From NCBI RefSeq assembly GCF_040954835.1, contig NC_090711.1, forward strand, positions 1,681,501-1,745,500: a stretch of DNA of 64,000 nucleotides, written 5' to 3'. This document shows positions 37,020 to 60,628 of the stretch, in pieces. The DNA is from Lepisosteus oculatus. Lineage: Eukaryota; Chordata; Actinopteri; Semionotiformes; Lepisosteidae. The stretch's first letter is position 1, and each line of letters begins with the position of its first letter. A program made the position numbers and the translations under genes. A model generated the notes under the pieces. That model did not search any database and was not told the DNA's origin. It saw only the letters and a list, made by a program, of their open reading frames with translations.

Positions 37020-40000
37020 TCAGTGCTGGACATGGACAGTGGAGCAGCCCCTGACGTCCTGGAAGAGGCTGCAGTTGAAATCAGCCATCAGCACCCTCTG
37101 GCCAGCTTCAAAGGGCTCGAAGGGGATCTGGACCCTCAGCCTCCGATTCGGCCCGAGAGCAGGTACCCTGAAAATGCACATGCACAGGTCAGCGCACCCC
37201 CCACCCAGACGAACGCTAGGCAGACGTGCCCGGTTCTCCTGAAGAGTGAACGTTGGAATTTAAAGCAGTCTTATAAATGACTAGTCCAGCCCCTGGCAAA
37301 ATTGTTGACACTGGCGTTCAATATACTTTCCCTTCGCGGTAATTAACTTAAATTGACACTGCTTCAGGCCGTAGGTGTGTAACAAACTGCTGAGGGAGAT
37401 GACAACGATGAGGTTTTCCAGAGAGTGTAAAAATAGACACTGATGGCAGGGTGATACTGTGAAGTTGGCTCAGTTCTCGCAGCCAGGTGGAAGATGGCTG
37501 TTCTGTTTAGGCCCAGAGGCGTTTAGTCTCATCAGTAATAATGACAGATGACTGGTGATCTAATTAGCACCGATTTGCAATAAATCTCACACTCTCTGAC
37601 ACCCATAAGATGCACATTGCAAATTCAAAATTATTAGTATAGCCCTACACAGTTTTGGTTAAACACAATCTTGGGGCGGAGCAGTGGCTCTGTGGCTAAG
37701 GATCTACTCCTGTGGCTGGAAGGTTGCTGGTTCAAATCATGCGGCTGGTAGATGAATCCTACTCTGTTGGGCCCCGGAGCAAGGCCCTGAACCCCAAGTG
37801 CTCCAGGGGTGCTGTATAAATGGCTGACCCTGCGCTCTGACCCCAAGATTCTCTCCCTGTCTGTGTGTCTCATGGGGAGCAAGCTGGGGTATGTAAGAAG
37901 ACAAATTCCTAATGCAAAAGATTGTATATGGCCACTAAAGCTAAAAGAGATCATTTTTCTTGACTTAAATTTAAATCTCCAGCCTTCAGGTTTGTAGATG
38001 TGCTTTAGTGGAGGCAGACTCCCTGGCAGTGTCCTACAGACTTGATGGCAAGGAGTGTGCGTCCACGATGGAGTGTGGACTTGGTGTCCTTCAGTCCCAT
38101 CTTCAGAGAATTCCTGGATGTAGAATCTGGAAATCATGGGACATGCTTCACGGAGTGCCCATTGCCCAGCAGTTACGGGACGGTAGATGGTTGCTCTTAC
38201 CCGGTTTCTTGAGGGCATTTTAGAAGCCCGGGCCCAGTCAAGGTAACGGTACAGTCTTTGAGAGTTTCTGCAGTCATGTTCTCAACAACCAGCTCGGCAA
38301 CCATTTCACCAAACAGGACTGGAGGACCTGTTGTCTGGAAGTACAAGCAAACAAGAAGAAATAATCCAGTTTTTACTCTACTAGACACTGAATAGTTTAC
38401 ACAGGGGTGTAACAATCCTACAGTGGCTGAGGAAACGTCTGGTTTAAAACGGGCAAAGTATAAACTTCCACCCAAACTCTTCCCAATCAGCTGATCATCA
38501 TCAGCCTCTTCATCAACAGATGAAGACATCGAATCTGGAGGATCTTGCTGTTGGCTCAGTGGAATGTCACTACTATGTTTGAAAAAAGCGGGACTTTTTC
38601 TGAAGTCTGAGATTTAACATTTGCTTTTTTTTCTGTGGGCTGACTGAACAGGAGCTTAGATTTTTAGAAAAATGCCTTCACCGTTAGTTTATTATTTTTT
38701 TTTGATTACTTTAAATTCTCCTGGAACCGACGTCAAACTCTGTTCCTGGGGTGGCCTTCTGCTTTCCGGTTTTTGTTCCAACCAGAATAGTCAAACGATT
38801 AACTGATTTTTTTTTTACATGAGGCATATATAGAATTTTTCTTAATGTCTTTTGCAGTTCATTGCCAGACATTCACTATCACAGTTACCTATCAATCACA
38901 CTGGAGCCATGGCAGACGTATAGCAATTATTAATGATACATTTTCGTATTTTCGGGGACGTAGGCCGATGAGGATGTGCGTGTTTGTGAAAGGTGTAGCA
39001 GGTTTGCCTTCAACGCTTTCACATGCCTCTCCTCTGAGCAGGTTATTGATTTGCAAGCCTGGAGCAGGAGTGTCTCTGTGGCCCTGGGCCTCAGTTCTAA
39101 GCACCAGAGGAACTTGGGGGGGGGGGGGGGGGGCTGAAAATGATCTGTTCAACTGATCCATGTGTGTTGCAGTACCAAATCACTTTTAGCTATTAGGCAT
39201 CAGGACAGAGTTGGGCAGTAACATCAATCCCTTTCCGAAAGACGTTGAGTAGCCTGTCTTACTAGAAGAAAAGACAGCCAGGCAGGGCTTTGACATACTT
39301 TCAGGCTGAGAGTGGGTCTGGACAGGAACATGTTCTTGGAAGTGAAGAACCCTCTGTTGTTCCAGGGCAGGTGGGTCAGGGCCTCCACCCTCATGATTTT
39401 GTTCTCCAGCACATGACCTTCGTACTTGGAGTAGGGGATCAGGATTGGAATCGTTATCTCTGAGAGAACAAAGGCAGAAATCAAGTCAACATCTCCCCTC
39501 CTGGCGTTTTGGAGTATGTTCCTCTGGATCATGATCAGGTTGGCATAACTCGATTAAGTGGGGCAAACATTTTACCTCCAGCTTAGGCAGCTATTTATGT
39601 GTCAGCTGTCTATTATTTCCCTGACAGTCTCACACAGACTTTGGGTGGAAATGATTCCTTATTTGGAATAATGGATAAGGGCAGAGTGGTGGCTCTGTGG
39701 CTAAGGATCTGCACCTGTGGCTGGAAGGTTGCCGGCCCAAATCCTGAGACCGGCAGAGGATCCTACTCTGTTGGGCCCCTGAGCAAGGCCCTTAACCCCA
39801 ACTGCTCCAGGGGTGCCGTATAAATGGCTGACCCTGTGGTCTGACCCCCAAGCTTCTCTCATTGTCTGTGTGTCTCATGGAGAGCAAGCTGGGGTATGTG
39901 AAAAGACAAATTCCTAATGCAAGAAATTGCATATGGGTGATAAAGTGATCTCTCTTATAAACCTGTTTGCTCCTAATTTGTGACTAATTTCTAAGGCACT

Positions 40001-43000
40001 AGGTGATCTACTGTCTCCACTGGACCTTTGTCTGGGGTCTCCAGTTTATAGCTCTTTTCAAACTTATGGTGGTGCTGGCAAGTGTCCAACACTGCAGCCT
40101 GTTTCTCTCTGGATCGGAAGAAAGTCTCATGTAATTCTGCATTAACTGTGGGTGTGTTGATAACCTAACAGTGTTAACGGTTCAGTGTCGAGACTGAACA
40201 GGACCGTAAATCCCTAGACGGAACCCTACACCATGTGATCACCTGTCTGTGGCTGCACCTCCACGTCCCTGTTCTCGCTCCAGAAGTCCTCCGCACAAAC
40301 CCCATTGTAGCAGATGGAGTCGGCGTTGATGTTGACCGTCATCTTCCGGGTGACCGTGCTGTTGCTGTGCACGATCAGCCTGAGGCTGATGTCCTGCCCC
40401 CTGACGGGGGCGCTCTGCTCCTCGATCTTGAGAGTGATCTCCGGCTGCTCTGGGGCAGTGGGTGGTCGCACCCCTCCGGTGACATGGCCTTTACTCACTG
40501 CCAGTGTGTAGACCTCCCTCTCCTTTGCACTGCCTGTGCAGTACAGAATACAGCCATTGACAAAGAGCACTGGTGAATCAAGAAAACTTGCAAGGTCCAC
40601 TGTGCAGTTTTCAGTACCAAACTACTGTGTACACAAGGTGTTCAAGTCTGGACTTGCGACAGTATGACGCAGAGTGGAAGGAAGTCTTCTGTACTGCTTT
40701 GGGATTGGAAAAGGACTTGTATGGAATATTTTTATGGACACTAACTTAGTCTGAATAAAGATGAATGTTGGCTACCCATCGCATCGTCTGCATACCTTCT
40801 GGGTATTTGTAGCTGCTGGTGATGTCCGTTCGTGCGTCACTGCCCACGGCCTTGGTGCTGATATTCTTGCCCACGGATTGAGTGTCAGTACTCATTTTCG
40901 TCTTGGTTCCATCAGATTCCACGTACCAGACCACGATGTCTGCGTTGACCTCAGCGAACACGAAGGGCACGTCGTATTTGTGCTCTGTGTGCCCCTCCAG
41001 GATGGCCTTCACTGGGGCCGGACCGCAGCAGAACGCTCCTGGGACAAGGAGGAGACACCCGGGTCTTCAGCTGGACAGAACATTTCGTCTAGAAGTCGTG
41101 CAACTACTGGCCGTTAGCTGTACCTTCACTCCTCTCCTGAGGCGTCGGGTCCAAAACCTGCCAGCCACCGAAGTCTCCCTGGAGATCAGGGCGGCGCATC
41201 CACGACTCCACCCAGACGTGGAAGTTCCTGCAGAACCACAGCTGTTAAATTACAAACCCTCTCTCTCTGGACATCGCTCCTTTCAGAGGCTGCGACACTC
41301 ACCAGACAGACTCATTTTGCTTTTTGGCGTTGCCGCGGTACATATCGATGGTCAGGTTCCCATCCGAGTCGTGGGCAGAATCGAAGTTGCTGACCACTCG
41401 AGTTGGGATTCCCAAGCACCTCATCACTGTGATGGAGAGAGAAGAAGCCACACTGAAGAAGACAGGGGTGTGGCAAACAGATCTTGAAGATTTGTTCAAG
41501 TTTAAGCAAGATGTTTGTAGTCCAGGATAACTCAGATTAGCAGGAGTCGCACAGTTTATAAATCAGTGTGACACACTATGGACTGTAGTGTGTCTACGGT
41601 CCATAGTGATTTGCATGTCTTTATGCCTGCGTGAGGTCTGCAGCGCTCAGACGAGCCCTCAGGGCAGCAGGTCACCTGTGCACATGACGGCAGCGAAGAC
41701 CCAGCACTGGCCGTACTTCACCGGCTGCCCTCCGGACTTGTGCCACTTCCTCAGGATCGACACGCTGTCACTCCAGCTCGTGGGCTTGACACCATCTTTG
41801 TAGTCGTCGTCCCACTTGCCCACGAGCACGCCATTGTCATCGTTTGAGTTAATCTGGGGGGGGTGGGGGGTGGGAAGGTGTAAAGGTTTCAGTCTAGTCA
41901 TCTGGAGATGTGGTGCTGATTTTCTGCAGCATCGTGATTTAGTGTCTGTCTGGAGTGTGGCGAGTTAAATTCAAATATCCATTGGTTGAAACAAGTATAG
42001 TGAAACAGTATAATTTCACAGTTCCTCAAGCTCCATTGAGTTTTCAGTGACGACATGGACTTCCATGCCCAAGCCCTCAAAATGTACTCTATTTTCATTA
42101 ACAGAGGATACCCCATCCGTGTTGTTGACAGGGCCTTCTCCTGAGCTAGCCCATGGATCATCAACTCAATTAGGAAGTCCCGGCCTCACAATTGCATTCC
42201 ATTGGTGTTTCCCTACCGCCCTAACACCCTGGACCATAAATAACTTCCCCATCTCACAGGATGATCCCTCCACTGGTACCCTTTTTTCTGAGTTCCCCAT
42301 CATCGCCCATCACAGACCACCTAATCTGTGTAAACCTTCTTGTTCACAGTTTCCTTGACCGCCCTCAGCAGTCATCCACACCAGGCACTTTCACCCTGCA
42401 ACAGGACTCACTGCATCACCTGTAAATATACATCCAATCCCACACACATTCAAGGGCAGGCCCCTCTGGACAATTCCGGATCACTCAGATGACATATCTC
42501 AGCAGCCTTATTTACTGCATCTCTTGCAGTAAATGCCCAGCTATCTACATTGGTGAAACAGGATTGAGACTGGGACACCATTTCAGGGCTGTGGGGATCT
42601 AGATCTCTCCAACCCATAGTTTCCCATTTCACCTCTAATGGCCTCCATCTGATCTCTCTGTCTGCAGTCTCACAGAGGGGTTTTGGAACTCCTACCGCAG
42701 AAAGACATCTGAAACCAAAATTATCCTGAAACTCAACGACAGACTTGTTTCCTTCTAATCCTCTCTATTCATTTGCAGGTTTTGACTTCAAACCTCTCTC
42801 GACTTCACACCACCCGAGTGCCCACTCTGCTTCTCTCCTGATCCCGCCCCCTCTCCACTCCCGGCTTTTGTTCTTCCATGCTTTATCAAGTGCCAGTTTT
42901 CCTCTCTCCATCACACCTGAAGTAGGCTCCACAGACGAAACATTGTCTCCTCTTTTCAGCATGGAATAAACCTGTACTTGTTCCTGAACAGTATAATACC

Positions 43001-46000
43001 ATCTATATCTTGTTTCAGACACAAGGTGCTGATACACCTCTCCTGCTCTGTACTTTGACATTAAAATGCATTTCTCTGTTGCTCAAAAAAGAGAAAGTGA
43101 AACACATGACACAGTGGATACGCACCATGGCACTGACGATTCTGCTGACGTAGATGGGGTTGCACCGCGCAGAGCAGTCCTCCCCAGGGTCTCTCTTGAA
43201 TTTGGGACTGGCATTCAGCATCCACAGACAGATCTCCAGGACGTCCTCCTCAAACTAAAGAGACACTCCTCGTTAACCCAGGGCAGAGCAGCAATGAGGC
43301 AACAAGAGATGCAGAACACAGACTGGCACGGGGGGGGGGGGGGGGGCGAGATGCAAACACAGCCCCCACCCCGGCACGCTGTTCCCATGGGCACCAGTGA
43401 AGCATTTCAACTGCCTCCTGGATCCCGTCCTGGAAATGTATATCTTTGAGCTGCAGTTCAGGTCTTTACCTGTCCGAAGGTCCAGGGAATGCCATGGATG
43501 TAGTCACGTGTTCCTCTAAACACCCGTCCAGAATCATTCATGACGTACTCCTGTCTCTCATCCTCCTTGGGCAGGTAGACCCAGTCCTCTGCAGCAGGGG
43601 AGACAGCAGTGGCTGTGCTAACGTGTTATACCTTCACACACTCCACTGTCTCATTGATGTATGTCTACGAGTCTGCGTTTTTTAGCATCAGACATGCCCT
43701 CAAACATATCTTTGTACAGCTCTGTTTCTAGTAGAAAAATATTAATAATCTGCTCATTATTAAACAAGGCCTTAACATCACATCTGCTGAGTATTTAACC
43801 AAATCAGTCAAGCAAGGTTTACAGGTGATACCGCAGGGCAGTTAAGACAGGAGTATGAAAATAGGGGCACTGTAGCACCACTCTCTCTCAGTCTTACCTG
43901 AGCACCAGGGGTTAAACAGCACAATGAGGTTCCCTATGGTGTGGTTCTGGACAGGGGTGGTGCCAGTCTGTAAGGACAGGGAGTATTTTCCAATACTGGC
44001 ATCAGGAGGGCTGGTGATCTTCAGGGTCACAGTGTTCTGAGATGTCTTCTGGATGGTGGCGCCCCACGACTTACTCTTCACCACGCTGGGCACCCCGAAC
44101 GCTGACCTCGTCCCTGCAGAGTCAGAGGCCTTGGGGCCTGGAACACAGAGACACTGGATTAGAGCCGCCCACTGCTGTGGACTTAAAATACTGTTTGCAT
44201 GGGCCTGGCAGACACTGTGAAACCAGTGGGTGCTAAATCTCTCACACCGAGCTGGGTGATCAATGTTGTTACATGTTTCCACAACAAGGCATTAAAAGCT
44301 TTGGAACAGTACCTAATGAATACCTCCTGAAGCCACCTCAAGGTCTTCTAGGTCTACTCTGCTTTAAGTTAAAAATGAGGTATAAGAACTCAATCTGACT
44401 AACCAGTACAGAAGGCAAACTAGATAGTGCACAAGTGGGCAGTTTCTTTCCATGACAAGGAGATTTGCTTTAGAGCATTTACTTAAGCAATTAAGACACC
44501 CAATCACTTGTGGGACCAAAGTATTGGGCGAAAGGACTCGGTGTTGTCCAGCTGCTGGGATATCGAGGTAGCAGCGCTCGTACCTGTTTCCACAGTGAGC
44601 TGCAGGGTGTCCGCCCCCTGCGGAAATTCCCTGTTAAAGGACACGGAGAGGAGGAAGTCCTGCCCTCGTCTCACTATGAGCCTGTCCTTGGAGAACCTGT
44701 TGGTGTGGTGAGCGCTGTTGTTCACATCGCAGTGGAAGTCTTTCTGAGTCACAGCTGCAGGGGGAGATGAGAGACTCCAAATCACTCTCTCTGGGTTCGG
44801 CCCGGCAGCAGTCACAGCAGGGCAGAAGGCCACAGCCTTTTTATCATAGTGGCTAAGTGCTCCCGAGTTAAACGTTTTATAACTTGGTGTAAGAGGACCT
44901 CTCCACTCAATTTGTGTTTTTGAGGGCTGAATAAGGGCATTTTTAACACACTCCTGATATAGGTGTGGCAGAAATTTAACCTAAGGACATATTAAAATCC
45001 TGAGTTCTTTACTTAGTCTACAAAATACTTTTTAGTAGTCTTAGATGGCACATAATTCCACTGGCAATTTCCTCGTTAGGACAAAATGTTCCAATTTAAG
45101 TATAGAAAGAACAGGCCTGGATCAGGGCTTAAATAGAAGCTAAACACCTAGAGATCACAATTAGAGTAATCTCTAGAGTTAGGCTGTTCAGCACCCAGGT
45201 TGAGGTGACCAAAGATCTTCAAAATCAGCAGAACCCAGGGAAACACATACAAAACACAATCGTGAGTTCCAAATACTCTTATTTAGAGTACGGGGAAAGT
45301 ACAAACAAAACAGAAACCAAACCAAAACATCTCCTAAGCCAGTGACTAATATAATAAGGTAGCTAAGATGCTAACTGGCTTCCAAATCAACAGGGCTCAC
45401 TCTCAGAATTCCAAAACATGGTCTCAAGGCTCTTGAAGACTCTTCCACAACTCACAGATTTCTTTATCCCTTGGTTAGACACATCCCTTCTCCCTTCCCA
45501 CTAGTGAATTTTGACCATATAGGATCTATCCTCTGTACTCCAGAAAGCAGATGCAACATAACCTGCTCAGGAACACCTAGCTTCCTCCTTTTTAAACTGT
45601 CACCTGACCAATTGTCTTCCAGCAACTGGTCAGGTGACTGAGGGCGGCAGCTCATTGCCCTCTGCATTTTGGGGAATGTAGTTCAGACAATATTTATGCC
45701 TAGACTTACTACCCTCATACAACTGCATAAAGAAATATTGGTAATGAATTTGACCCTGTTCTGAACTTGTAATCAATAAACAAGTGAGGATTAAAGAGCT
45801 ATATGTTAAATCTAAATAATGAAGTTGTTGATATTGTTTAAAGAAGATGTGATAATAACATTGACTTCAATTGAACCTCCAAAGACAGTTGGAAATCTGA
45901 GTCTTTAGGACCCTTTAGGAATTTTCTCATGATTAGCAGATTGCAGCCAGTTTCCTAACAACCTGTGATGAGTGATTAAAATCTGTCAGCTCCCACGCCT

Positions 46001-46747
46001 GTCTAGCCCATTCATTGAGGGAAGTAGGCAGCACTGAAAGCAGGCTCATTAGCAATGTTTTCTATTCAGGGTCCTTAAAAAACTTGTTAAACAGGATGGC
46101 TTTCAGACTTTAGATGTTTTGTGTATCTGTTTGTGCTGAAAGCAGGCTCATTAGCAATGTTTTCTATTCAGGGTCCTTAAAAAACTTGTTAAACAGGATG
46201 GCTTTCAGACTTTAGATGTTTCGTGTATCTGTTTTGTTGGTTTCAGGAGACAGCTCTATGATGACGGTGGCTGGAAAACTCTCCCAAAGAGTCAGTTAAT
46301 TATTTATTACCATTTAAAGACCTACTTTAACCCTTTTATTACTTCAGGAGGGCTTTTAACTGGTTTACAGGAAATCTGCTCCAGCTGTTCTTGTCTGCTG
46401 TCATGACGTCAGTCAGTATTAGAGATGGGAGGAAATGCTGTGACTCCATTTCAAACCGTCTTTTGCAGTCCTTCTGTGCCGTGTGAGCTCTATACCTTTA
46501 TCCAGAACTCACCTTTCACCTTTTTTTAAAAGAGATGGAGATGCTGACCCCTAGTAGAGGTGAAAGGTCAAAATTGCAGCCTGCATTGTCTCCCCGCTCT
46601 CCTCTCCCTCTGACACTTACAGAACACGTGTGCCCATTGCACAGATTGCAACATTGTAAGATACCAAGACTAACCAATAGAGAAATGGACTAAACTGTCT
46701 TGAAATGTTTCAATCCAATATTTTATTGATGACTCACCCAAAGCCAT
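37020..46747 (-). CDS. TGM-A: transglutaminase (TGM5/TGM7/EPB42-cluster-like)
   Basis: Thirteen exons, 5′ to 3′ on minus: 46738-46747, 44584-44754, 43898-44137, 43470-43588, 43126-43254, 41676-41853, 41303-41426, 41124-41227, 40796-41038, 40243-40533, 39299-39459, 38201-38334 and 37020-37167. All have AG/GT, phases fit, total 2052 bases, 683 residues (human TGM2 687). The family makes glutamyl-lysine isopeptide bonds in a calcium-dependent way. The triad is intact: Cys273 (KYGQCWVFA), His327 (WNFHVW), Asp350 (WQVLDPTPQ); Trp237 (VGKW) matches the transition-state Trp of TGM2. Order: N-terminal beta-sandwich (about 5-140, LIVRRGQDF), core (140-450), two C-terminal beta-barrels (450-683). No signal peptide; first exon encodes MALA. 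Being next to ccndbp1, as in the human 15q15 cluster, suggests that clade, but the sequence also resembles TGM2, so no symbol is given. Introns hold SINEs and a Penelope-like element. Confidence 0.95.
37676..37960 (+). mobile_element. tRNA-derived SINE in TGM-A intron 12
   Basis: The head has a polymerase III A-box-like 'tggctctgtggctaagg' and a clear B box, 'ggttcaaatc'. The body has 'tcctactctgttgggcccc', 'agcaaggccctgaacccc' and 'ctgtataaatggctgaccct', and the tail 'aattcctaatgcaaaag'. The same family recurs at 39672-39955, and a tail only at 57176-57275. It is inserted opposite to the gene. Confidence 0.85.
38201..38334 (-). other. TGM-A exon 12, diverged C-terminal barrel exon
   Basis: Same length (134 bases) and phase as TGM-B exon 12 (50558-50691) but clearly different in protein: [20 protein letters not shown] here against [20 protein letters not shown] in TGM-B. 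It lies outside the homogenised parts of the two genes. Confidence 0.85.
39116..39133 (+). repeat. poly-G tract
   Basis: Eighteen consecutive G residues lie in TGM-A intron 11. Such a run is prone to length errors and could form a G-quadruplex. Confidence 0.9.
39672..39955 (+). mobile_element. tRNA-derived SINE in TGM-A intron 10
   Basis: Second copy of the SINE at 37676-37960, sharing 'tggctctgtggctaaggatc', 'tcctactctgttgggcccc' and 'gtataaatggctgaccctg', with tail 'gcaagctggggtatgtg' and 'aattcctaatgcaag'. Its B box is damaged ('ccggcccaaatcc'), so it is unlikely to be active. Confidence 0.85.
42050..43010 (+). mobile_element. Penelope-like retroelement fragment in TGM-A intron 5
   Basis: A 5′-truncated copy. 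The + strand gives [11 protein letters not shown] near 42105, then RPPNLCK, a cysteine-rich stretch (CNRTRCITC) and, in shifted frames, a GIY-YIG endonuclease remnant ('gcccagctatctacattggt' near 42536). A 3′ UTR with 'ctgaagtaggctccacagac' and a polyA-like 'ggaataaacctg' follows. These are hallmarks of Penelope-like elements. The coding part is broken by stops and frameshifts. TGM-B lacks it at the matching intron (54300-54734), so it either inserted after the genes separated or was lost there. Confidence 0.75.
43330..43346 (+). repeat. poly-G tract
   Basis: Seventeen G residues lie in TGM-A intron 4, 76 bases upstream of exon 5. The matching place in TGM-B has only a short 'cgggggcta'. Confidence 0.9.
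44755..46737 (-). other. TGM-A intron 1
   Basis: Two kilobases without a recognisable exon. It holds a perfect-looking 102-bp tandem duplication at 46034-46237. TGM-B intron 1 is only 428 bases, so most of this sequence was gained here or lost there. Confidence 0.7.
46034..46237. repeat. 102-bp tandem duplication
   Basis: The block beginning 'ctgaaagcaggctcattagc' at 46034 is repeated at 46136 and runs to 'tagatgtttcgtgtatctg'. The copies differ at about one base in 100, so the duplication is recent. Confidence 0.95.
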
Positions 46748-46860
46748 GGTGCACAAGCTCATAGTCTTCTTAGTCTTCCTCCAGAGTCAACCTCAACAAT
46801 CAGCTGCTTCGTTCAGGAGCGAGATGCTCCTCTCAGTGTGTGGGGTTCTATTTATCTCGT
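46748..46860 (-). promoter_or_regulatory. TGM-A core promoter and 5′ UTR
   Basis: Upstream of the ATG the minus strand carries 'gagataaatagaacc' (46844-46858), a TATA-like box about 100 bases from the start codon. The 5′ UTR is closely similar to that of TGM-B (57569-57680), where the box is a fuller 'atatataaatag'. Confidence 0.5.
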
Positions 46861-47149
46861 GAAGCCCAGCCCCTCTCACATTGCTGGGCAGTCAGCATCC
46901 AGGAAAGGATACTGAAAAGCCACCACACAGGTTTGATTGAATACCAAAGGAACCTGCTCATGAATGAATTAACAGTTGCTGTAAAGGCTCACATGATTTT
47001 AACTCACATTATCCTTTTGTCACAGGTGTCAAGCTCAATAAATATCACAATATAATTTTGTTTATTTAGTGGTCTGTGAAAATGTAATTTAAACATTGCA
47101 ATCAAGAGCAATAATATGTTATTCCACTCCACAAAAATCAAAGTAAATC

Positions 47150-47760
47150 ATAGTTATAAGAATAAGGAACAAGTAATAGGTTTATTCCCTGCTGAAAAGA
47201 GAAAGAAACACATTTCAGCTGTGGAGCCTTCTTCGGGTGTGAGAAAGACAGGGCAGACAGCAAAGATTAAAGAGCACATGAGAACAAAAGCTGGGAGAGA
47301 GGAGGAGAAGGGAGCAGGGGAGAGGCAGAGAGGCCACTCAGGTGGTGCCAAGTGAAGAGGGGTGAAGAGAGGGCTGAAGTCGAAACCTGCATGTGAATAG
47401 ATATGATTACACAAAAACAAGTCTGTCATTGAGAGAAGGGGGAAGGTGTGAGGATAATTTCAGGATATTTTTTGTTTCTGATGTCTTTCTGCTGTGGGAG
47501 TTGAGAAACCTTTCTTTGAGAACACAGACGGAGAGATTAGAGTGGTCATGGCCGTTTGAGGTGAAATGAAAAACAGTGGGCTTGGAGAAATCTTTAATCC
47601 TCACAGCCCTAACATGTTCTCTGAAGCAGTCTTTGAGTCTCCTTCCTATTTCTCCAACATAGACAGCTGGGCATTTCCTGCAAGAGATACAGTAAATGAG
47701 GTTGCTGGAGGTACAAGAGGTCACCTGGGCTCCACAGCCAAAATGATGTGTTCTCTTACT
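47150..47760 (-). mobile_element. Penelope-like retroelement 3′ end with GIY-YIG domain
   Basis: On minus, 47407-47724 is open for about 105 codons with the GIY-YIG nuclease signature (NLIYCISCRKC, VYVGEIGRRL, FREHV) and its downstream FHFTSNGHDHSNLSVCVLK. The 3′ UTR follows (47150-47406), matching the copy at 42750-43010 ('cttcgggtgtgagaaagac' against its complement). Upstream reverse transcriptase is absent, so it is 5′-truncated. It sits just upstream of the TGM-A promoter. Confidence 0.8.
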
Positions 47761-47970
47761 TGTACCTTTGCAGCCTGTGCATGCTAAAACACCTACCCAT
47801 CTGAACTACTGTTATAAGAATAAAAAGAGTCGTTAAATTATTGTCTTTTATTTATCCTTGTGGGAAAATGAGTCGCCATTTCTAAGGTTTATTGGTTGAA
47901 CTGGCAAAAATGTATGTATTCTCCTTGTTCATGCAGACAAATGAACGGGATTATTTGCAGAATACCATAT

Positions 47971-48215
47971 TTTGTCATTCCAGGCGACGAGCCTGGCCTC
48001 AGTCTTGAAGAAAGTCCTAGATATTGTGAGGTAGGTGTCTGGATATCAGCCTTCATCTGTCCCTCCCCTGCAGGTGATTAGTCTCTGTAGACGTGTCTGT
48101 AGGCGGAGGTGAGTCTAATGATTTTGAGAGTGCCGGTCTCTTGCCTAATCACTTTAGGAATTTGCAGTTGGAATGAGAACACTTGTTATTCAGATGATGA
48201 ACAACGTAACTGCAG
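47971..48215 (+). pseudogene. ccndbp1 exon 10 relic
   Basis: From 'tttgtcattccaggc' at 47971 this matches ccndbp1 exon 10 and its intron (34281-34510). The exon copy, 47984-48030, keeps the acceptor AG, the donor 'gtaggt' and all codons: its three changes from the parent are third-position and silent, so the encoded ATSLASVLKKVLDIVR is unchanged. The following intron matches with about 10% changes and indels until about 48215. No other ccndbp1 exon is found nearby, so it cannot make the protein alone. Confidence 0.85.
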
Positions 48216-49398
48216 TGTTCAACAGGCATTCTGAGAGTTTGCCCTAGAAATCCCCTTCTGTGCAAGTTAAGTCTTGTCGAACAACAGGAAAAGATTGTTA
48301 TAAAAACAATGGAGATTACAAGACAAACAATTTCAATTTTTCATTAATTTTAATGAGTGCATTTTTTTCCCCCATCACCATTTAACAAGAACAAGAAAGT
48401 ATCTTGACTGGTTGACTGAACAGTTATTCCAAAAGTAAAGTACTCCCATTCCTTCACAAGACCCTAGAACAATTCCGTAAGCAGCATAAAACAGATATGC
48501 ACATTTTTTTCATAAATAGAATTTGGAATTCAATCATTTTTGTGGTTATAGGAACAAGATTCATCGCTTAATTTGACATCTGCCTTTGGAAGATTTCAGG
48601 ACCGAAGAAAAAAACTTTCTTTATAATTTTACAAGTTGAGATCTGCACCAGTAAATTCACAATACTGTGGACCTGAACATATCCCACATAATTTACTCTT
48701 TATGTACTGCAGACACTAACCACAAAGTTATGTGATATTTTGCTGTAGCTAGAGAGCTCGCCATGTTTTATCTTTTTGATAACATTTATAAAACACATTT
48801 AGTATACAAAAATTGTCACTTCTTTTTTCAAACTTCTGGAACCAGAGATTTAACTCTGGCATTTCATTTCCAAAGACAATTAACATTCCTGGAAGGAACC
48901 TAATAAGGTTCAAACCAGGATGAACATAAAAGCTGCCCAAAACAATTTACAAAACATGAAAATCAAAGCGTATTATACTCCAGGCAGCATATAATATGGT
49001 ATATATGAGCAGTAAACGAAAGAAGATTTCAGTATTGCTAACATCATAGGCCAGGAGCCCAAGTACAGCAGCCCTGGGCAACTCAAGGGGAATTTTTGGC
49101 AACAACTTTGTGCATTCTGACAATGTATAGGGTCCAATCAGAAACATACAGAATTAGTTCCTCTAGAACATAAAATACAAAATATTTATAAAGTCTATGA
49201 AGAACGTTACAAATTATCGTAGCTGATTTGAAATCGATTCAGAGTCTGCTGAACAACAGAGGGGTTTGAGCACAGGAGTAAACTGATCAATCCAGGCCAG
49301 GACACTGACCCTCCTCTCTGACTGTTTGCCCCTGGACTTTGTTAAGATAGACGAAGGCTGCAGCAGGGAGAGAGGAGAAACTCAGGACATTCACGCCC
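48216..49398. other. spacer and probable TGM-B 3′ UTR
   Basis: AT-rich sequence between the ccndbp1 exon relic and the TGM-B stop. Part of it should be the TGM-B 3′ UTR, but no canonical AATAAA was confirmed on the minus strand. No coding exon or known repeat was recognised. Confidence 0.4.
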
Positions 49399-52300
49399 TC
49401 AGAACACGACATTTACAGTGCTGTAGGCCTTGATATCCTTGAAGAGGTTGCACTTAAAGTTGGCCACCAGCACCATCTTGCCCATTTTGAATGGCTCGAA
49501 TGAGATCTGTGCTCTCATCACTGTTTTTGGACCGATATTGGCCACCCTGAAATGACAGACAAGCGCGAGTCAGCAGGGACAACTCTACCCACACACACAT
49601 ACAAGGCACAAAACAGAGTTCACTCGAAGTCAGATGAGTCAGGAGCCAACTGCCATGACATGACAGGTGTCAGTTCTAGTTCCCTGGAGCTAACAAGAGC
49701 ACCTTTCACAATTCATTTTTAAGGTGAAGAGTCTTCACGGAAACTAAAACAACTGCAGGTAATGAGCCTGGAATGAACTGCGCCCTAGGGAGAAGTTGCA
49801 TGCAAGACAATCTAGAGACAGGGTTTTTTCAGACAACACATTCAAATCTTTCAAAGAAATAGAAGAATTACTCAGATACGAACAGGCCACTCCACAAAAA
49901 GTGCAGGTGTGACCAAACATGTCTGAGATGCTGACAATATTCCAATTAACACCAAAATTGACAACTCTTCCTCCTACAGAAGTTTCAAATATCAGGGGTG
50001 TCCAATCCTGGCTATGGGGACCCCCACATGTCTGCTGGTTCTGATTGCTGCTGAGCTCTTTACTTCAAGCAATGCTTGGCTGAACCAACCAGTTGCTTAG
50101 TTGGAACGTCTTCAAGTTTCTTTTCTTCTAACATTACTTATGAAATGCAATAAAGACCATTGAAACTCTTCTATGGCCTCCGGTTTCCATGGCCCATAGT
50201 TCTAATATGGCTCCCAAAGGTCAGAGGATGTTGTATAACGTAATTGTGTTCTTCAAGAGTTACAGTTACTGTAACACACTTTCTCAGCTTTTATTTTCCA
50301 AATACCTGAGTGGATCCCAGTGTTGCAGAGACTGGAGGGGAGACAACCATGGGACTTGGGGACCCCCAGAGGTTTCTTTCCTCCCACTGGGTTGTTTTTT
50401 TTGTTGACCTCTCCACTGTGTCTACATGATCCACTGCAGTTTTATTGTCAACTGCACTACAGACCTGTGGCGAAGTGTTGTGAAGGGAGGTAGAGGAAAT
50501 AATAGAGGAAATAAATTGACCGATTGACCGATTGGCCGCTTGGCCGCTTGGCCTTACCGTGACACACGGGGGCTTCTCAGCAGCCCAGGTCCTGTCAAGG
50601 TGAGTACACAGTCTGTGAGAGGCTCGTCCAGTGGGTTCTCCATCACCACCTCAGCCTCCATGTCGGCAAACAGGAAAGGCATTCCAAACACCTGGAAGGA
50701 AAAATGACACATGAACTTAATAAGCAGTCTTTCCTTTTCAGTTTTATATTTTTAATTTAGAAAGAAATTTGTGCTCTGTAAAGTGTGCACTACATTACAG
50801 TGTGAACAGTTTACACAGGGAGGAAGTTATACCCTGTAGCTGGACTGATGTGTTGAGTATTAGTTTGGCCACAAGTCAAGTTAACTAGATTCATTAACTA
50901 ACATTAATTAGGTTCTCTAGAAATTTTAAAGGCATCCTTAGACAGGACAGGGTCATCATGAATGTCACCGTCTCTTTATAGACGGTGATTATTAGCATTT
51001 GATAAAACTTCAGTTGGTGGTAAATTGCTGTTTGATACAATATTTGTTAAAAATATTTGAACAGCTCAGTCTAAAGTGTTGCCATTAGTTCTGAGCACCA
51101 GTGGAGTCTGAGGAGCTAACTAAATGCCACACTGTTCAGTTCCTCATGGTACAATACAGAAGCAATTTGAGCTCGGAGGTGGGGGCAGAGTTTCTGAAAG
51201 GAGCTGTGGTTTCTGGGACTGACCAGTCTTGCCAAGACCCAGTGAAGACCCAGGACCGGGCCAGTAGCAGCTCCCTGGCTCATTGACTTACCTGCAGGCT
51301 GAGGGCTGGGCTCGACAGGATCACGTTCTTGGAGGTGTGGAACCCTTTGCTGCTCCAGGGTGGCTTGGTCAGGGCCTCCACCCTCATGGTCTTGCTCTCC
51401 AGTACGTGATCTTTGTACTTGGAGTAGGGGATCAGGATTGAAATCTTTACCTCTGCGAGAGCAAAGGCAGAAATCAAATCAGCATCTCCCCTCCTCCTGC
51501 TGTTTCAGGGTCTTTTCATGCTAGTTAATGTTCACAGCTCCCAAAACAACTTCCAGGAGCTGGAACATGTGGACTTGAAAGCACCACGAGTATGGACAGC
51601 GGTGGTGGAAATTCTCGGTTCTGAGAGAGAGAGACCGTTCTCAAAGACTTGAGCTTCGGGTCAGCTTTCTTTCCGAAAGAATATATGCACCACGCGTGAG
51701 GAATTTTCAGTACGTCATTATGCCAAATGCCTTTTAATTCCATGATGCTCTGAAGCTGAAACTATTTGAAATGACTCTTCATTTTTGTAAAGCCTGTGTG
51801 CAGTGATAGTTTAATTTAATTAATTTCTAGGGAGTTTAATGTTCTGCTACCCCAGTCTGATGTCTCACGTGCGCAACTAATGCCTTCTGTCAAGTTAAAA
51901 GTCAAGGTTAATTCCGTGCTGACAACTCAAATGAAAATCTATGTTATAATTAAGTTAAAGTTATGGGATGCCCTACCACACCCTCACTGCAAACGTTCCC
52001 TCGGAATATGGAGTTTATAACAGGACTGATCCTAATCTGGCTCACTTCCACTCGCCTCGTATATAAGTCTCGTGCCCAGGACTTCCCTTCACGCATCTCT
52101 ATCTCTCCCAAACCTTCAACCCCCTCCCCCCCCATCTCCACTCCTGCAGCAGCTCCCTGGCTCATTCCTCGCGATAGTGAGGAGGGGGGCAGCCTCATTC
52201 TCTCAGATAGGCGGCCATTCCCTCAGCCAGGCGGGTCTTTTTACAACGTAGTTCATCCCTCTGTCACATTCATTAGGATCTAACTGAACTACAGGACTGT

Positions 52301-55300
52301 GGAATATCGGATATAAGCAGTAGATTCCTGTTGAGTTGTGCATCGCCAGACGGAACCCTACACCATGTGATCACCTTTCTGTGGCTGCACCTCCACGTCC
52401 CTGTTCTCGCTCCAGAAGTCCTCCGCACAAACCCCATTGTAGCACATGGAGTCGGCGTTGATGTTGACCGTCATCTTCCGGGTGACCGTGCTGTTGCTGT
52501 GCACGATCAGCCTGAGGCTGATGTTCTGCCCCCTGACGGGGGCGCTCTGCTCCTCGATCTTGAGAGTGATCTCCGGCTGCTCTGGGGCAGTGGGTGGTCG
52601 CACCCCTCCGGTGACATGGCCTTTACTCACTGCCAGTGTGTAGACCTCCCTCTCCTTGGCGCTGCCTGTATAGATATGCTGGCATTTCACACCTTTGCAC
52701 ATTCAATTACCCTTCTTAATAAATTTCTCCAGATAATGTAAGTCATTAAATTTAAGTTAACTTTAAAATAAAGTTAACTATTTAGGGATAGCAACGCATA
52801 GTAAGATCCTGTGTATCACCAGATCAAGCAAGCAGAATTGTCAGAATATGAATACTGACATTTAAAAATACTCTAGACTCAGAAGACTTAGATGTACCCA
52901 TTAATTCATTACTGCTTTTCTTCAATATGTTTTTAGCTTGATACAGTATATTACTTTAATAGAAATTAGAACTTAACTTTAATCAAAACTGTTAAAGACT
53001 AGTAACGCCCACCACAGCGTCAGCATACCTTCTGGGTATTTGTAGCTGCTGGTGATGTCCGTTCGCGCGTCACTGCCCACGGCCTTGGTGCTGATATTCT
53101 TGCCCACGGATTGAGTGTCAGTTCTCATTTTCGTCTTGGTTCCATCAGATTCCACGTACCAGACCACGATGTCTGCGTTGACCTCGGCGAACACGAAGGG
53201 CACGTCGTATTTGTGCTCCGTGTGCCCCTCCAGGATGGCCTTCACTGGGGCCGGACCGCAGCAGAACGCTCCTGGGACAAGGAGGAGACACCTGGGTCTT
53301 CAGCTGGACAGAACATTTCGTCTACAAGTCGTGCAACTACTGGCCGTTAGCTGTACCTTCACTCCTCTCCTGAGGCGTCGGGTCCAAAACCTGCCAGCCA
53401 CCGAAGTCTCCCTGGAGATCAGGGCGGCGCATCCACGACTCCACCCAGACGTGGAAGTTCCTGCAGAACCACAGCTGTTAAATTACAAACCCTCTCTCTC
53501 TGGACATCGCTCTCATGCCTTGAGAGTGGAACTGCGCTTCTCGCTGGAGAACAGCCCCATGACTTTCACTGATACACTGGAGAATAAACAGAGAGCAGAG
53601 GGAGCAAAAGGGCTTCAGACTGCATTCAGCACCTGCTGATCTGGTTGACCCTCTCCTTGCCACAGGCAGACAAAGGCAGAAGAAAGGAAGGGGCATCCTC
53701 TCTCTGGACGCAGTGCAGAAATGTCCTTTCAGAGACTGCGACACTCACCAGACAGACTCATTTTGCTTTTTGGCGTTGCCGCGGTACATATCGATGGTCA
53801 GGTTCCCATCCGAGTCGTGGGCAGAATCGAAGTTGCTGACCACTCGAGTTGGGATTCCCAAGCACCTCATCACTGTGATGGAGAGAGAAGAAGCCACACT
53901 GAAGAAGACAGGGGTGTGGCAAACAGATCTTGAAGCTTTGTTCAAGTTTAAGCAAGATGTTTGTAGTCCAGGATAACTCAGATTAGCAGGAGTCGCACAG
54001 TTTATAAATCAGTGTGACACACTATGGGCCGTAGTGTGTCTACGGTCCATAGTGATTTGCATGCCTTTATGCCTGCATGAGGTCTGCAGCGCTCAGACGA
54101 GCCCTCAGGGCAGCAGGTCACCTGTGCACATGACGGCAGCGAAGACCCAGCACTGGCCATACTTCACCGGCTGCCCTCCGGACTTGTGCCACTTCCTCAG
54201 GATCGACACGCTGTCACTCCAGCTCATGGGGGAAACCCCACCTTCAAAGTTATCGGTCCACCTGCCCATCAGCACCCCATTGTCATCGTTGCTGTTGACC
54301 TGGGACAAAGCAACGCGAGAGCTTAGGAAAAGCCAGCAAGAAGAATTAACACTGGAGACCTGCAATCAGTTTCTTGGACTCGCTGGCAATGCAACATGAC
54401 TTATTCAGTAATGCCGAGCTGAAGCTGTGCTAAAAATGGGTTCAACCTGAAATAACGAGGGCAGCAAAACCAATAGCTGCATTAGCTATTGAGAGGGTGA
54501 CCAAGGTACAGAAGGCCAAAGTCACTCATGATGTACTCCTGTCTCTCATCCTCCTTGGGCAGGTAGATTTCTACCAGATCTGCATACTCTAATTGCTTGG
54601 TTCTTGTGCTTCAGAAGGCCTGGGGTGAATACCTGTGCACATGGTGTTCATAAACATGTCAGTGTTATTGCCTTATACTTTAGGCAGACAGGAAAGGGTT
54701 AAAGCTCAAGAACCATGTGAGGCTGCACACACACCATGGCACTGACGATCCTGCCGACGTAGGTGGGGTTGCAGCGCGCAGAGCAGTCCTCCCCAGGGTC
54801 TCTCTTGAATTTGGGACTGGCATTCAGCATCCACAGACAGATCTCCATGACGTCCTCCTCAAACTAAAGAGACGCTCCTCGTTAACCCAGGGCAGAGCAG
54901 CAATGAGGCAACAAGAGATGCAGAACACAGACCGGTACGGGGGCTATAGACACGGCCAGATGCAAACACAGCCCCTACCCCCACACACTGTTCCCATGGG
55001 CACCAGTGAACAGAGCTCTGCCTCATCACAACACCTCCTGGCCCCACTCATCCCAGAACTGTGCTGGGGCTCAGCAGGTATCGGATATACCTCCGAGGTG
55101 CAATTCTAGAGGTGTGCCTGGGAATTACCGTGAAGAGCATTTGTTTACCTGCCCAAAGTTCCAGGGTAGGCCTTCAATGTTGTCATATGATCCCCGGTAC
55201 AGAAGGCCAAAGTTGCTCATGACGTACTCCTGTCTCTCATCCTCCTTGGGCAGGTAGACCCAGTCCTCTGGAAAAGGGGAGACACAGCAGTGTGAGGGGG

Positions 55301-57568
55301 TGTGAGGAGGGAGACACAGCAGTGTGAGGAGGAAGAGGAGACACAGCAGTGTGAGGGAGTGTGAGGAGGGAGACACAGCAGTGTGAGGAGGAAGAGGAGA
55401 CACAGCAGTGTGAGGGAGTGTGAGGAGGAGGAGACACAGCAGTGTGAGGAGGAAGAGGAGACACAGCAGTGTGAGGGAGTGTGAGGAGGGAGACACAGCA
55501 GTGTGAGGGAGTGTGAGGAGGGAGACACAGCAGTGTGAGGAGAAAGAGGAGACACAGCAGTGTGAGGGAGTGTGAGGAGGAAGAGGAGACACAGCAGTGT
55601 GAGGAGAAAGAGGAGACACAGCAGTGTGAGGAGGAAGAGGAGACACAGCAGTGTGAGGGTGGAGGAGACAGCAGTGTGAACAACTGCACTAGCTTCCACT
55701 CCAAGATTTACCACAGGCAACAGGTCAATTCACACATTAAATGGCAGCATTAACTTCAGCCTCTAGCTTTAAAATCAGTAAAATAATAAAAGAGTCTAAT
55801 CGCTGATACACTATCATAAGCCATAGACCATATGTAACCGTGCAAGTTATTTTCTATGCCTTTAGATGTTCAATGTATTTATTGAGTGCAAGAAGCACAC
55901 ACCAATTTTCAGTTGGTTTCTGCTCCTGTGCAAAACATCAGTTTTCTTTTGCCTACCAAAATGCAGCTCTAAATGCAAAACAAAGGATATTATCCATTCC
56001 TCAATTTCTACTTTGAAGGTTTGGAAAGATCATTTTTTTCCTGCTTAACTCATTTTGTGGCATTGACACACCTGTGTCAAAGAGAAAGGAAAGTCTAACT
56101 AAGATTAGGGGGCGCTGTAGCACCACTCTCTCTCAGTCTTACCTGAGCACCAGGGGTTAAACAGCACAATGAGGTTCCCTATGGTGTAGTTCTGGACAGG
56201 GGTGGTGCCAGTCTGTAAGGACAGGGAGTATTTTCCAATACTGGCATCAGGAGGGCTGGTGATCTTCAGGGTCACAGTGTTCTGAGATGTCTTCTGGATG
56301 GTGGCGCCCCACGACTTACTCTTCACCACGCTGGGCACCCCGAACACTGACCTCGTCCCTGCAGAGTCAGAGGCCTTGGGGCCTGGAACACAGAGACACT
56401 GGATTAGAGCCGCCCACTGCTGTGGACTTAAAATACTGTTTGCATGGGCCTGGCAGACACTGTGAAACCAGTGGGTGCTAAATCTCTCACACCGAGCTGG
56501 GTGATCAATGTTGTTACATGAGTGTTGCCGATGCCTGATAATTATGTGTTGGAGCTGCTGTATGACCTGAGTATTTTTAATTTTAGAATGACATATAGGG
56601 ACCTGAATGTGCTGAAGCAGTGTAATGCACACAGACACAAGAATACAGTAAGTTGGGTGACTGGTGTTTGTTTATTTGGCAGTCTTAAGCCACTTCATAT
56701 TAACACGCCTAATTTACTTACTGAAGCCGATTACGTTTACAAATCGATCCATCTCCACACAGCTACACAGCACTAGCTTTTCAGCCTTTTGGATGCTACA
56801 TGGGCTGTATACGCCATGACAAGAGGTATGCTTTTCCATGTCAAGCATGACTGATTTGGTTTTTTTTTTGCCTGGGTGCTCTTCAGCAGAAGAGTAGGTA
56901 AAAACATTAAGGGACTCGGTGTTGTCCAGCTGCTGGGATATAGGTAGCAGCGCTCGTACCTGTTTCCACAGTGAGCTGCAGGGTGTCCGCCCCCTGCCGA
57001 AATTCCCTGTTAAAGGACACGGAGAGGAGGAAGTCCTGCCCTCGTCTCACTATGAGCCTGTCCTTGGAGAACCTGTTGGTGTGGTGAGCGCTGTTGTTCA
57101 CATTGCAGTGGAAGTCCTTCTCAGTCACAGCTGCGGGGAAAAACCGGGAGCCCAGAGGGAATAAAACAGCTAGAGTCTTAGTGTCACGCTTGATGGACAA
57201 GCTGGGGTCTGCGAAAAGACAATTTCCTAATACAAGAAATTGTATATGGCCAATAAAGTGATATCTTTTATCTCTAGACCTGGGCTCAGCTCTCTGAGCA
57301 GGCAGGAGACCTGGTGTCCCGTGGCACATTGCCAGCGTCCTGTCTCAACCCCGCAGGCTCATGTGTCCCTATGTGCTGCGTTAGCCAGCCTGCACCCTGT
57401 GCCTTCCAACACCCAGCAAGACCTCAAGACTTCCAGCCACCTCCAGACCTAATCAGCCCATTGCACTGGCTGCTACAGCATCAGGTAACGACGCTTAAAC
57501 TGTCGGTAACGAAACTGTCTTGCAATGGTTTCAATCCAATATTTCATTGATGACTCACCCAGAGCCAT
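49399..57568 (-). CDS. TGM-B: transglutaminase, tandem paralogue of TGM-A
   Basis: Thirteen exons, 5′ to 3′ on minus: 57559-57568, 56960-57130, 56143-56382, 55149-55267, 54735-54863, 54122-54299, 53749-53872, 53357-53460, 53029-53271, 52375-52665, 51292-51452, 50558-50691 and 49399-49546. Each exon has exactly the length of its TGM-A partner; total 2052 bases, 683 residues, no stops. The active site is intact (Cys273 in KYGQCWVFA, His327, Asp350, Trp237 in MGRW), so it should be a working calcium-dependent cross-linking enzyme and not an EPB42-type dead member. Exons 7 and 8 are identical to TGM-A in DNA, and exons 2, 3, 9 and 10 differ by only 2-4 bases each. The second half of exon 4, the first half of exon 6 and exons 11-13 are strongly different. 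Same orientation as TGM-A, with its own TATA box (57669-57680). Confidence 0.95.
53512..53728. other. extra segment in TGM-B intron 7
   Basis: TGM-A and TGM-B share this intron's two ends almost perfectly, but TGM-B has about 215 extra bases. The extra part is bordered by two copies of 'cctctctctgga', suggesting a short-repeat-mediated gain here or loss in TGM-A. No coding potential was seen. Confidence 0.7.
54505..54568 (-). pseudogene. partial exon-4 copy inside TGM-B intron 5
   Basis: The + strand 'ggtacagaaggccaaagtca' through 'tccttgggcaggtaga' matches the exon-4 stretch at 55196-55257 with few differences. It lacks both exon ends and splice sites, so it is a duplicated scrap. It resembles the TGM-B version of exon 4, not the TGM-A version. 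Confidence 0.85.
55279..55680. repeat. minisatellite in TGM-B intron 3, 14 copies
   Basis: 'gacacagcagtgtgagg' recurs about 14 times with alternating spacers (gaggaagag, gagtgtgaggagg). It begins 12 bases upstream of exon 4. TGM-A lacks this array; its matching intron keeps only a single 'gagacagcagtgg'. Confidence 0.95.
57176..57275 (+). mobile_element. SINE tail fragment in TGM-B intron 1
   Basis: Contains 'gacaagctggggtctgcg', 'aatttcctaatacaag' and 'tatggccaataaagtg', matching the 3′ tail of the SINEs at 37676 and 39672. The tRNA-derived head is missing. Confidence 0.7.
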
Positions 57569-57680
57569 GGTGCACAAGCTCGTAGTCTTTCTAGTCTTCC
57601 TCCAGAGTCGACCTCAACAATCAGCTGTTTCGTTCAGCAGCAAGATGCTTCTCTGAGTGTGTGCGGTTCTATTTATATAT
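57569..57680 (-). promoter_or_regulatory. TGM-B core promoter and 5′ UTR
   Basis: On minus, 'atatataaatag' (57669-57680) is a strong TATA box about 100 bases upstream of the start codon. The leader between them is closely similar to that of TGM-A. The similarity ends just upstream of the box. Confidence 0.6.
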
Positions 57681-58844
57681 GGGGCTGGGATGTCAGCAAC
57701 CAAGAAAGGCTATTGTGAAACTTAACGTATGCCTCTTCACTTTCAGTCCGATGAAGAAGATATGCTGGTGTTGTGGTAATCATGTAGTATGAAGCAGACT
57801 GTGATGGGTTGGGGTGTGTCAAGGAAATTTTAAGATCAACTAAAAAACACACCCCAGTGACCCACATAAGAAAAAATAAAAGTTAAATAATGAAGGGGCA
57901 ATTGTTTCAGCAACATTTTATGCTGGAGTTCTTCCTCTGCAGGTGAAAGACTTGTGATGCCTCTTTCGTCTGTTCCCCACACTTGGGCTTCTCTTTAAAT
58001 GACTGCTAAGGAGGTCTTCCCTGGCTGCAGGAGGCTGTGGCCGAGCTGTGACTCAGCCCTGCTGGGGTGCTGGAGACAGGCGTTCTAGCTCAGCACCCCA
58101 CTGTCCTCATGTTCAGAGAAAGTCAGAAATGCTGCTGGTCTGCTAAAGCTCCCTGCTGGCCAGGTCCAGAGTCCTTTCATTTTTGGCAATGTACCCAAAT
58201 ATAATAATAACTATAAAATATAGTATAAACACTATAAAATTAAAAATAACCATTCTCCATGGCAGACTCAGCCTCCCCCCTCCCCCTCGGGGTGCTATCT
58301 CTGTTTCCCCGCGGGCCAGGCGCGGTGCTGTAGATGGGGCCGGCGCAGGTTTTGGTGCGACTTGCCTGCCGAAGAGGATGGTAGCCTAGCTCTGAGGAAG
58401 AGCTTGTTAAAAGACCCCGAAAAGACCCGACGTTTCAGCTGTTGAGTCTTCAGATGTGAAGACGAGAGAGGAACGTTACAGGGACATATGGCAGAGGAGA
58501 ACAATAAACAATGAACAGAGAATGTTCCTCTATTTTTGAGTTGACAGATAAAACCGTGTCATTTTCATGCAACATGAAATTTCATCACAAGTTGCATGAT
58601 TTCCCCGCAGGGGATTCAGAAGAAATGGTCAAAGACACTTTCCAAACAGCAGAGCCTCTGAGCCATGACCCCTGGGGTGAGATTGTGGCTTAGATAGGAT
58701 AGATAACTGAGAACTGTAAGTTTCCTTCCAAGAGGGAAAGAAGAAAGCCTACGAGGTCTTGAGGCCTGGGGCCGTGCAGCTGTGGCGCAGGTGGGACTGT
58801 CTCGGGAACGAGTGGATCCTGTGGAGGGGCGGGAGAGAGGGGGG

Positions 58845-59225
58845 TGGTGGAGGATTATTGTGTTGATGGTGTAACAGCTCCTTCCCTTCCACTTAATGTG
58901 TTGAAATCCAAAACCATGATCATTGATTATAGAAAAGCCACCACCTGCTGCAAAACCAGCAGTCACTGCAGGAGCAAGAATACGAATTGTTCACTGCTAG
59001 AAATATCCATATTAATTTGTAATAACAGTTACGAATATTGTTGATTACAAGCTTACATTTGAGAAAAACACAGACGTAAGAAGAGCCAACAGAGACTGTT
59101 CTTCCTAAGAGAACTGTTCCTTTAATGTGTGGGTGTGGTACAATGACGACTTTATTCTACAGAAAGTTGAATCTGTCCTGACATTCACTGCAGTAGCCTA
59201 CACAACTAAAACACAGGATAGTGAA
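58845..59225 (+). mobile_element. LINE reverse-transcriptase fragment, copy 1
   Basis: Decayed frames show LKSKTMIIDYRKA, then QQRLFFLREL and ESVLTF, the pattern of the C-terminal reverse transcriptase of fish L2/Rex-type LINEs (TKEMVIDFRK … AQQRLFFLRKL … ESVLT). It is nearly identical over 350 bases, frameshifts included, to the copy at 61189-61595. Confidence 0.65.
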
Positions 59226-60203: not shown

Positions 60204-60612
60204 CTGAAAGGCCACTGGGCTGTGTGCTCTGAGCTCTGTGTGTCTGACAGGCCACTGGGCTGTGTGCTCTGAGCTCTGTGTGTCTGACAGGCCACTGGGC
60301 TGTGTGCTCTGGGCTGTGTGTGTCTGACAGGCCACTGGGCTGTGTGCTCTGGGCTGTGTGTGTCTGACAGGCCACTGGGCTGTGTGCTCTGGGCTGTGTG
60401 TGTCTGACAGGCCACTGGGCTGTGTATGTCTGACAGGCCACTCGGCTGTGTGCTCTGGGCTGTGTGTGTCTGACAGACCACTGGGCTGTGTATGTCTGAC
60501 AGGCCCTGGGCTGTGTGCTCTGGGCTGTGAGTGCCTGACAGGCCACTGGGCTGTGTGTGTCTGACAGGCCCTGGGCTGTGTGCTCTGGGCTGTGTGTGTC
60601 TGACAGACCACT
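60204..60612. repeat. 40-bp minisatellite beside the ankrd60 stop
   Basis: Units of 'gtctgacaggccactgggc' plus 'tgtgtgctctgggctgtgtg' repeat about ten times, mostly 40 bases apart, with some shortened units. The array ends 17 bases from the ankrd60 stop codon, so it probably forms the start of that gene's 3′ UTR. Long frames here are products of the repeat. Confidence 0.95.
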
Positions 60613-60628
60613 CGGCTGTGTGCTCTGC

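Follow-up and report, generated by a model that had tools for sequence, protein, structure and literature searches.

Mosaic divergence in a tandem transglutaminase gene pair of Lepisosteus oculatus, very probably shaped by repeated interlocus gene conversion

We analyzed a stretch of 64,000 nucleotides from the genome of Lepisosteus oculatus (RefSeq assembly GCF_040954835.1, contig NC_090711.1, positions 1,681,501 to 1,745,500), referred to below as the window, whose numbering is used throughout. It carries two neighbouring transglutaminase genes, TGM-A and TGM-B (in short, A and B). Along this pair, synonymous and intronic divergence alternates between about 0-3% and near saturation over distances of a few hundred bases. 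Judged from this pattern, A and B are very probably old tandem duplicates in which exon-centred blocks have been overwritten by each other repeatedly via interlocus gene conversion. A preliminary description of the locus had proposed such repeated conversion between neighbours, and the proposal is supported here by near-identical introns lying a few hundred bases from saturated synonymous divergence and by tracts that are unequally diverged.

Both genes were reconstructed from splice signals:

TGM-A, positions 46747 to 37020, minus strand: splice model with 13 exons and 683 amino acids; Transglut_N, core and C domains
TGM-B, positions 57568 to 49399, minus strand: splice model with 13 exons and 683 amino acids; Transglut_N, core and C domains

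The exon lengths are the same in A and B throughout, so that the gene structures described earlier were borne out. The motifs GQCW, NFHVW and DPTPQ stand at matching positions in the two proteins and presumably, as elsewhere in the family, mark the sites of the catalytic residues Cys273, His327 and Asp350. With all three domains and these motifs present, A and B are by sequence members of the transglutaminase family. Human TGM2 was aligned with B, and full-length B scored 607 bits with TGM2 and 601 bits with TGM3. Among solved structures, the C-termini of both A and B scored higher with TGM3 than with TGM2. On a placement in the TGM3/5/6/7/8 subclade, which would group A and B with TGM3-type genes apart from TGM2, the scores of the C-termini and of full-length B thus point in different directions.

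The divergence between A and B is distributed very unevenly over the splice-model exons. The genes differ at 4 of 171 nt in exon 2, 2 of 240 in exon 3, 5 of 129 in exon 5, none of the 228 in exons 7 and 8 together, 4 of 243 in exon 9 and 5 of 291 in exon 10, and at 29 of 161, 53 of 134 and 49 of 148 nt in exons 11, 12 and 13, respectively. Exons 4 and 6 are split, as all 25 differences of exon 4 lie downstream of nt 51 and 23 of the 24 differences of exon 6 lie within its first 74 nt. The recount gave the figures first put forward for exons 2, 3, 7 and 8; for exon 10 near identity stood, and the count of about 4 had to be raised by one. Nei-Gojobori estimates, calculated without codons straddling a segment boundary, gave a synonymous divergence (dS) of 0.032 and a nonsynonymous divergence (dN) of 0.011 for the low-divergence set of 483 codons (exons 1-3, 5 and 7-10, nt 1-51 of exon 4 and the end of exon 6). 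The corresponding values for the high-divergence set of 192 codons (exons 11-13, exon 4 beyond nt 51 and the beginning of exon 6) were 0.805 and 0.303, in agreement with the heavy divergence claimed earlier for exons 11-13 and for half each of exons 4 and 6. Single divergent segments reached a dS of about 1.5 (1.53 for the exon 4 island, 1.04 for the exon 6 island). At fourfold degenerate sites, 5 of 197 differed in exons 1-3, 5 and 7-10 vs 16 of 26 in exons 12-13 (Fisher p 8e-14). Exon 11 was intermediate, with a dS of 0.30 (p 2e-5 vs the converted exons, 5e-4 vs the other islands), and the four islands other than exon 11 did not differ from one another (p 0.56). The longest coding run free of differences measured 317 nt, the maximum in 20,000 site permutations being 133 nt; when the permutations were limited to exons 1-10, one of the 20,000 equalled it. 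Among the 271 fourfold sites, 31 of which differ, the longest identical run of 74 sites was matched by 14 of 20,000 permutations.

At the protein level 87 of the 99 residue differences fall into residues 158-180, 224-248 and 537-683. The statement that the homogenised part includes the catalytic core therefore holds for the presumed Cys273, His327 and Asp350, and fails for residues 158-180 and 224-248 of the catalytic domain. In the unconverted segments dN/dS was about 0.38, from which both genes appear to be constrained.

The tracts and islands identified in the pair, all on the minus strand, are as follows:

T1, A 46689 to 46855, partner 57509-57676, minus strand: upstream flank, exon 1 and start of intron 1; older; 91.1% identity over 168 columns, 10/109 neutral differences in the ungapped part
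T2, A 44531 to 44762, partner 56909-57138, minus strand: exon 2 and 53 bp of intron 2; 96.6% identity
T3, A 43864 to 44275, partner 56109-56520, minus strand: 138 bp of intron 2, exon 3 and 34 bp of intron 3; 3/412 differences, intron 2 part 100% identical
T4, A 43538 to 43591, partner 55217-55270, minus strand: nt 1-51 of exon 4 plus 3 bp of intron 3; 0/54 differences
Island, A 43470 to 43537, partner 55149-55216, minus strand: last 68 nt of exon 4, not homogenised; 25 differences, dS 1.53
T5, A 43126 to 43401, partner 54735-55010, minus strand: 147 bp of intron 4 and exon 5; older; 22/276 differences
Island, A 41780 to 41853, partner 54226-54299, minus strand: nt 1-74 of exon 6, not homogenised; 23 of 24 differences in the exon, dS 1.04
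T6, A 41278 to 41779, partner 53724-54225, minus strand: end of exon 6, intron 6, exon 7 and part of intron 7; 7/502 differences
T7, A 40796 to 41279, partner 53029-53512, minus strand: part of intron 7, exon 8, intron 8 and exon 9; 6/484 differences
T8, A 40216 to 40525, partner 52348-52657, minus strand: exon 10 from nt 9 and 27 bp of intron 10; 3/310 differences
T9, A 39299 to 39502, partner 51292-51495, minus strand: 43 bp of intron 10 and exon 11; intermediate divergence, 33/204 differences, exon 11 dS 0.30
Island, A 37020 to 38334, partner 49399-50691, minus strand: exons 12-13, not homogenised; 102/282 coding nt differ

The non-coding sequence follows the same mosaic. Introns 6 and 8 are about 98% identical along their whole length (98.0% over 249 bp for intron 6, confirming the near identity noted before), and intron 7 is 96-100% identical at both ends with a clean 213-bp length difference between them. 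The two ends of intron 2 are 94% identical over 53 bp and 100% identical over 138 bp, respectively. The core between them, 255 bp long in A and 388 bp in B, gave no match between the genes, and the 100% identity gives way to nothing alignable across a single base. Matches in introns 1, 3, 4 and 10 were confined to one or both ends, and introns 5, 9, 11 and 12 gave none at the threshold of the comparison. In a more sensitive test of the intron cores with 60 shuffles each, for which introns 11 and 12 were entered whole, splice ends included, introns 4, 9, 11 and 12 showed traces of similarity (0 or 1 shuffle reaching the score), introns 2 and 1 weak similarity at best (2 and 5 shuffles), and cores 3, 5 and 10 no similarity over shuffles (56, 37 and 17). 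Such a pattern would fit introns of old common origin that have since diverged by drift. For the statistics we used an exon-anchored comparison, as a global MAFFT alignment misplaced exons 4 and 5, probably via a minisatellite.

That the near-identical introns accompany the near-identical exons decides between selection and copying. An old duplication combined with extreme purifying selection on exons 1-10 could appeal to the conservation of the catalytic domain across transglutaminases, but equal identity is seen in introns 6 and 8 and in 138 bp of intron 2, the synonymous sites of exons 1-10 hardly differ, and the exons of the converted set (exons 3, 5, 7, 8 and 9) differ by about 45-50% at the protein level between A/B and three paralogous loci. 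We regard this explanation as next to impossible. A transfer of blocks between the genes by an assembly or polishing error is very unlikely: the near-identical blocks alternate with unique sequence every few hundred bases and hold 0.5-13% neutral differences of their own, both genes are open with consistent splice sites, and polishing does not make saturated sequence near-identical.

The intron cores were also considered as dispersed repeats. This was rejected, as the core of A intron 2 had no other match in the assembly when simple and very common words were skipped; a piece of the core of B intron 2 had two weak matches elsewhere (75% and 79%). A comparison of the cores with the retrieved loci was of little use, most matches being loci that overlap the window.

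Several repeats were observed in the introns. A minisatellite at 55274-55659 occupies much of B intron 3 and directly adjoins exon 4; A has by eye an apparent single copy of the unit at the same place. B intron 5 contains at 54505-54567 (minus strand) a partial copy of B exon 4, 63 bp long and 95.2% identical to 55196-55258, which shares B-type bases with exon 4 and by eye has no clear splice sites. A recent 102-bp tandem duplication lies in A intron 1 (46034-46234; copies 99% identical over 99 bp). A short repeat, SINE-like by eye, occurs at 37674-37931 (A intron 12), 39679-39936 (A intron 10) and 57198-57271 (B intron 1), as well as at other loci of the genome, and 42500-42985 in A intron 5 forms an inverted pair with the intergenic 47165-47707 (71% identical).

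To place the pair among its relatives we searched the 1.2 Gb assembly. The protein search found transglutaminase exons at at least six loci besides A and B (at least 58 matches). Two further loci, C10:31.35 Mb and C20:11.50 Mb, matched the Transglut_core model and lie outside the protein-search matches listed. The flanks of the window, 20 kb below it and 30 kb above it, contained no further matches at E up to 0.001. Among the matches listed, the nearest other locus on the same contig is about 13 Mb off, and the best match outside A and B has 63% identity over 85 residues, exon 8 (36 residues) reaching 75%. Pieces of exons 11-13 were recovered from three loci, and their identity to A or B is only 25-32%. 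DNA searches of the assembly with the exon 2-3 regions of A and B found the shared parts solely in A and B. There was thus no sign of a third gene as donor of the divergent pieces, the other loci among the matches listed being clearly more distant.

Trees were calculated from A, B and exon pieces of three of the six other loci, one of them lacking exon 13; the remaining three loci were omitted because exons 11-13 were not convincingly found in their stretches. The converted set and the unconverted set (exons 11-13) both pair A with B (support 0.999 and 1.000). From A to B the path length is about 0.03 substitutions per residue in the converted set vs 0.75 in the unconverted set, a difference of about 26-fold, and the branch leading to the pair measures 0.41 vs 0.86, a difference of about 2-fold. 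The C-terminal barrels evolve about twice as fast, so that rate does not account for the 26-fold gap. Of the effects envisaged earlier for separate trees, the difference in depth was found and a change in branching order was not. A rival scenario is one recent whole-gene duplication, followed by fast divergence or replacement of exons 11-13, of parts of exons 4 and 6 and of most intron cores. It would suit the near identity of the bulk of the coding sequence and the 91% identity of the upstream flank and exon 1. However, the divergent exons differ synonymously, which fast protein change does not explain, the C-terminal exons evolve only about 2-fold faster in the paralogue trees, and no outside donor was found among the matches listed; we consider this explanation highly improbable. 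In summary, near-identical blocks that include non-coding sites in a diverged pair, runs of identity longer than expected by chance and unequal tree depths all agree with gene conversion.

Regarding the number of conversion events, we compared neutral divergence (non-coding plus fourfold sites) across the nine tracts. Neutral differences amounted to 1/217 in the exon 3 tract, 1/50 in exon 2, 0/7 at the start of exon 4, 0/68 in exon 10, 6/306 and 5/189 in the two tracts of exons 6-9, 10/109 in the upstream flank and exon 1, 18/161 in exon 5 and 8/61 in exon 11. This heterogeneity (chi-square p about 5e-9) points to more than one conversion event. Third-position GC was higher in converted than in unconverted exons of A (0.77 vs 0.60, p 2e-4) and B (0.78 vs 0.66, p 0.005), and three control loci with scorable exons 12-13 showed no such excess (0.63 vs 0.88, 0.89 vs 0.88 and 0.56 vs 0.69). 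In this small sample, the GC excess agrees with GC-biased conversion. Some points weigh against repeated conversion as set out here. The six youngest tracts do not differ significantly in divergence (p 0.45) and the excess of the exon 5 tract over exon 3 drops to p 0.012 after removal of a poly-G patch, which leaves the number of events uncertain. In addition, the chi-square test includes some small tract cells, the controls for the GC pattern are just three scorable paralogous loci, and the evidence comes from one genome.

The ends of the tracts might have arisen in another way than by later insertions or deletions at their edges, namely by copying beyond the homologous region that was completed by end joining. 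The 138 bp of intron 2 at 100% identity, which end at one base with nothing alignable past it, would fit such an overrun, as would the stray exon 4 copy in B intron 5, which templated repair can leave behind. On the other hand, later indels yield the same junctions, as in the clean length difference within the near-identical intron 7, and the similarity traces in introns 4, 9, 11 and 12 suggest that homology may once have extended further. We think this variant of conversion rather unlikely. Equally doubtful is the idea that selection separates two co-adapted enzyme types against continuing conversion. The C-terminal barrels and the small islands at the end of exon 4 and the start of exon 6, with the 87 residue differences, would then form one functional unit, and conversions mixing them would be purged. 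The exon 4 and exon 6 islands are not flanked by converted sequence on both sides; they continue into unalignable parts of introns 4 and 5. Since they adjoin unalignable intron, a tract ending inside the exon explains them, and selection as the cause of these two small islands is unneeded.

Under repeated gene conversion, the history of the pair may be pictured as follows. Conversion would have acted intermittently since the duplication, and blocks that retained homology would still be convertible. It would now be limited by drift and by old indels in introns 1-5, 9 and 10. Early escapes may have been exons 12-13 and the small islands in exons 4 and 6, and exon 11 may have followed later. The likely outcome would be two active enzymes that share most of the catalytic domain, are almost the same in the N-terminal domain and differ in their C-terminal barrels.

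The A/B pair is neighboured by PEPCK and ankyrin genes. Exons of a GTP-type PEPCK lie on the minus strand at 18682-22469 of the window, and a PEPCK together with an ankyrin exon beside A/B may be reminiscent of the human PCK1 neighbourhood. Near the ankyrin-repeat exon, a pair of about 360 bp (58833-59199 and 61181-61538, 95% identical) surrounds a minisatellite at 60182-60627. An open frame at 47410-47805 appears mobile-element-like by eye and had no Pfam match.

For studies of this gene pair the mosaic has practical consequences. Dating the duplication from the full coding sequence would be badly off, with a dS of 0.19 for the whole gene vs 0.8 for the unconverted part, and a whole-sequence gene tree would blend two histories. 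The locus is a natural test of where conversion ends in genes whose introns are no longer homologous, and of whether chance or selection preserves the divergent islands.

Our literature searches, which covered titles and the openings of abstracts, found no report of gene conversion in transglutaminases. A and B belong to the gene family treated in a work on vertebrate transglutaminases, in whose main text a text search found neither "gene conversion" nor "tandem" (PMC11152450). Comparable patterns have been described in other genes. According to a review, the human red and green opsins are tandem genes in which conversion keeps divergence low and divergence peaks in part of the gene (PMC3924837). 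A and B resemble them in tandem arrangement, in low divergence via conversion and in local peaks of divergence. In the opsins, however, the peak sits at two functionally tested exon 5 residues with low divergence in the flanking introns, whereas the A/B islands extend into unalignable introns and have a putative function only. The opsin case makes protection by selection a tempting reading of the two small islands. Similarly, the paralogues GOT1p1 and GOT1p2 of the copepod Tigriopus californicus are described as a mosaic of high and low divergence under conversion (PMC3728101). They share the mosaic with A/B; that work compares populations, whereas A and B stand in one genome and several of their intron cores have passed beyond detectable homology. 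Interlocus gene conversion with islands of divergence is thus already known and a comparable mosaic is in print, and the A/B pair is a clean and useful case of it rather than a surprising one.

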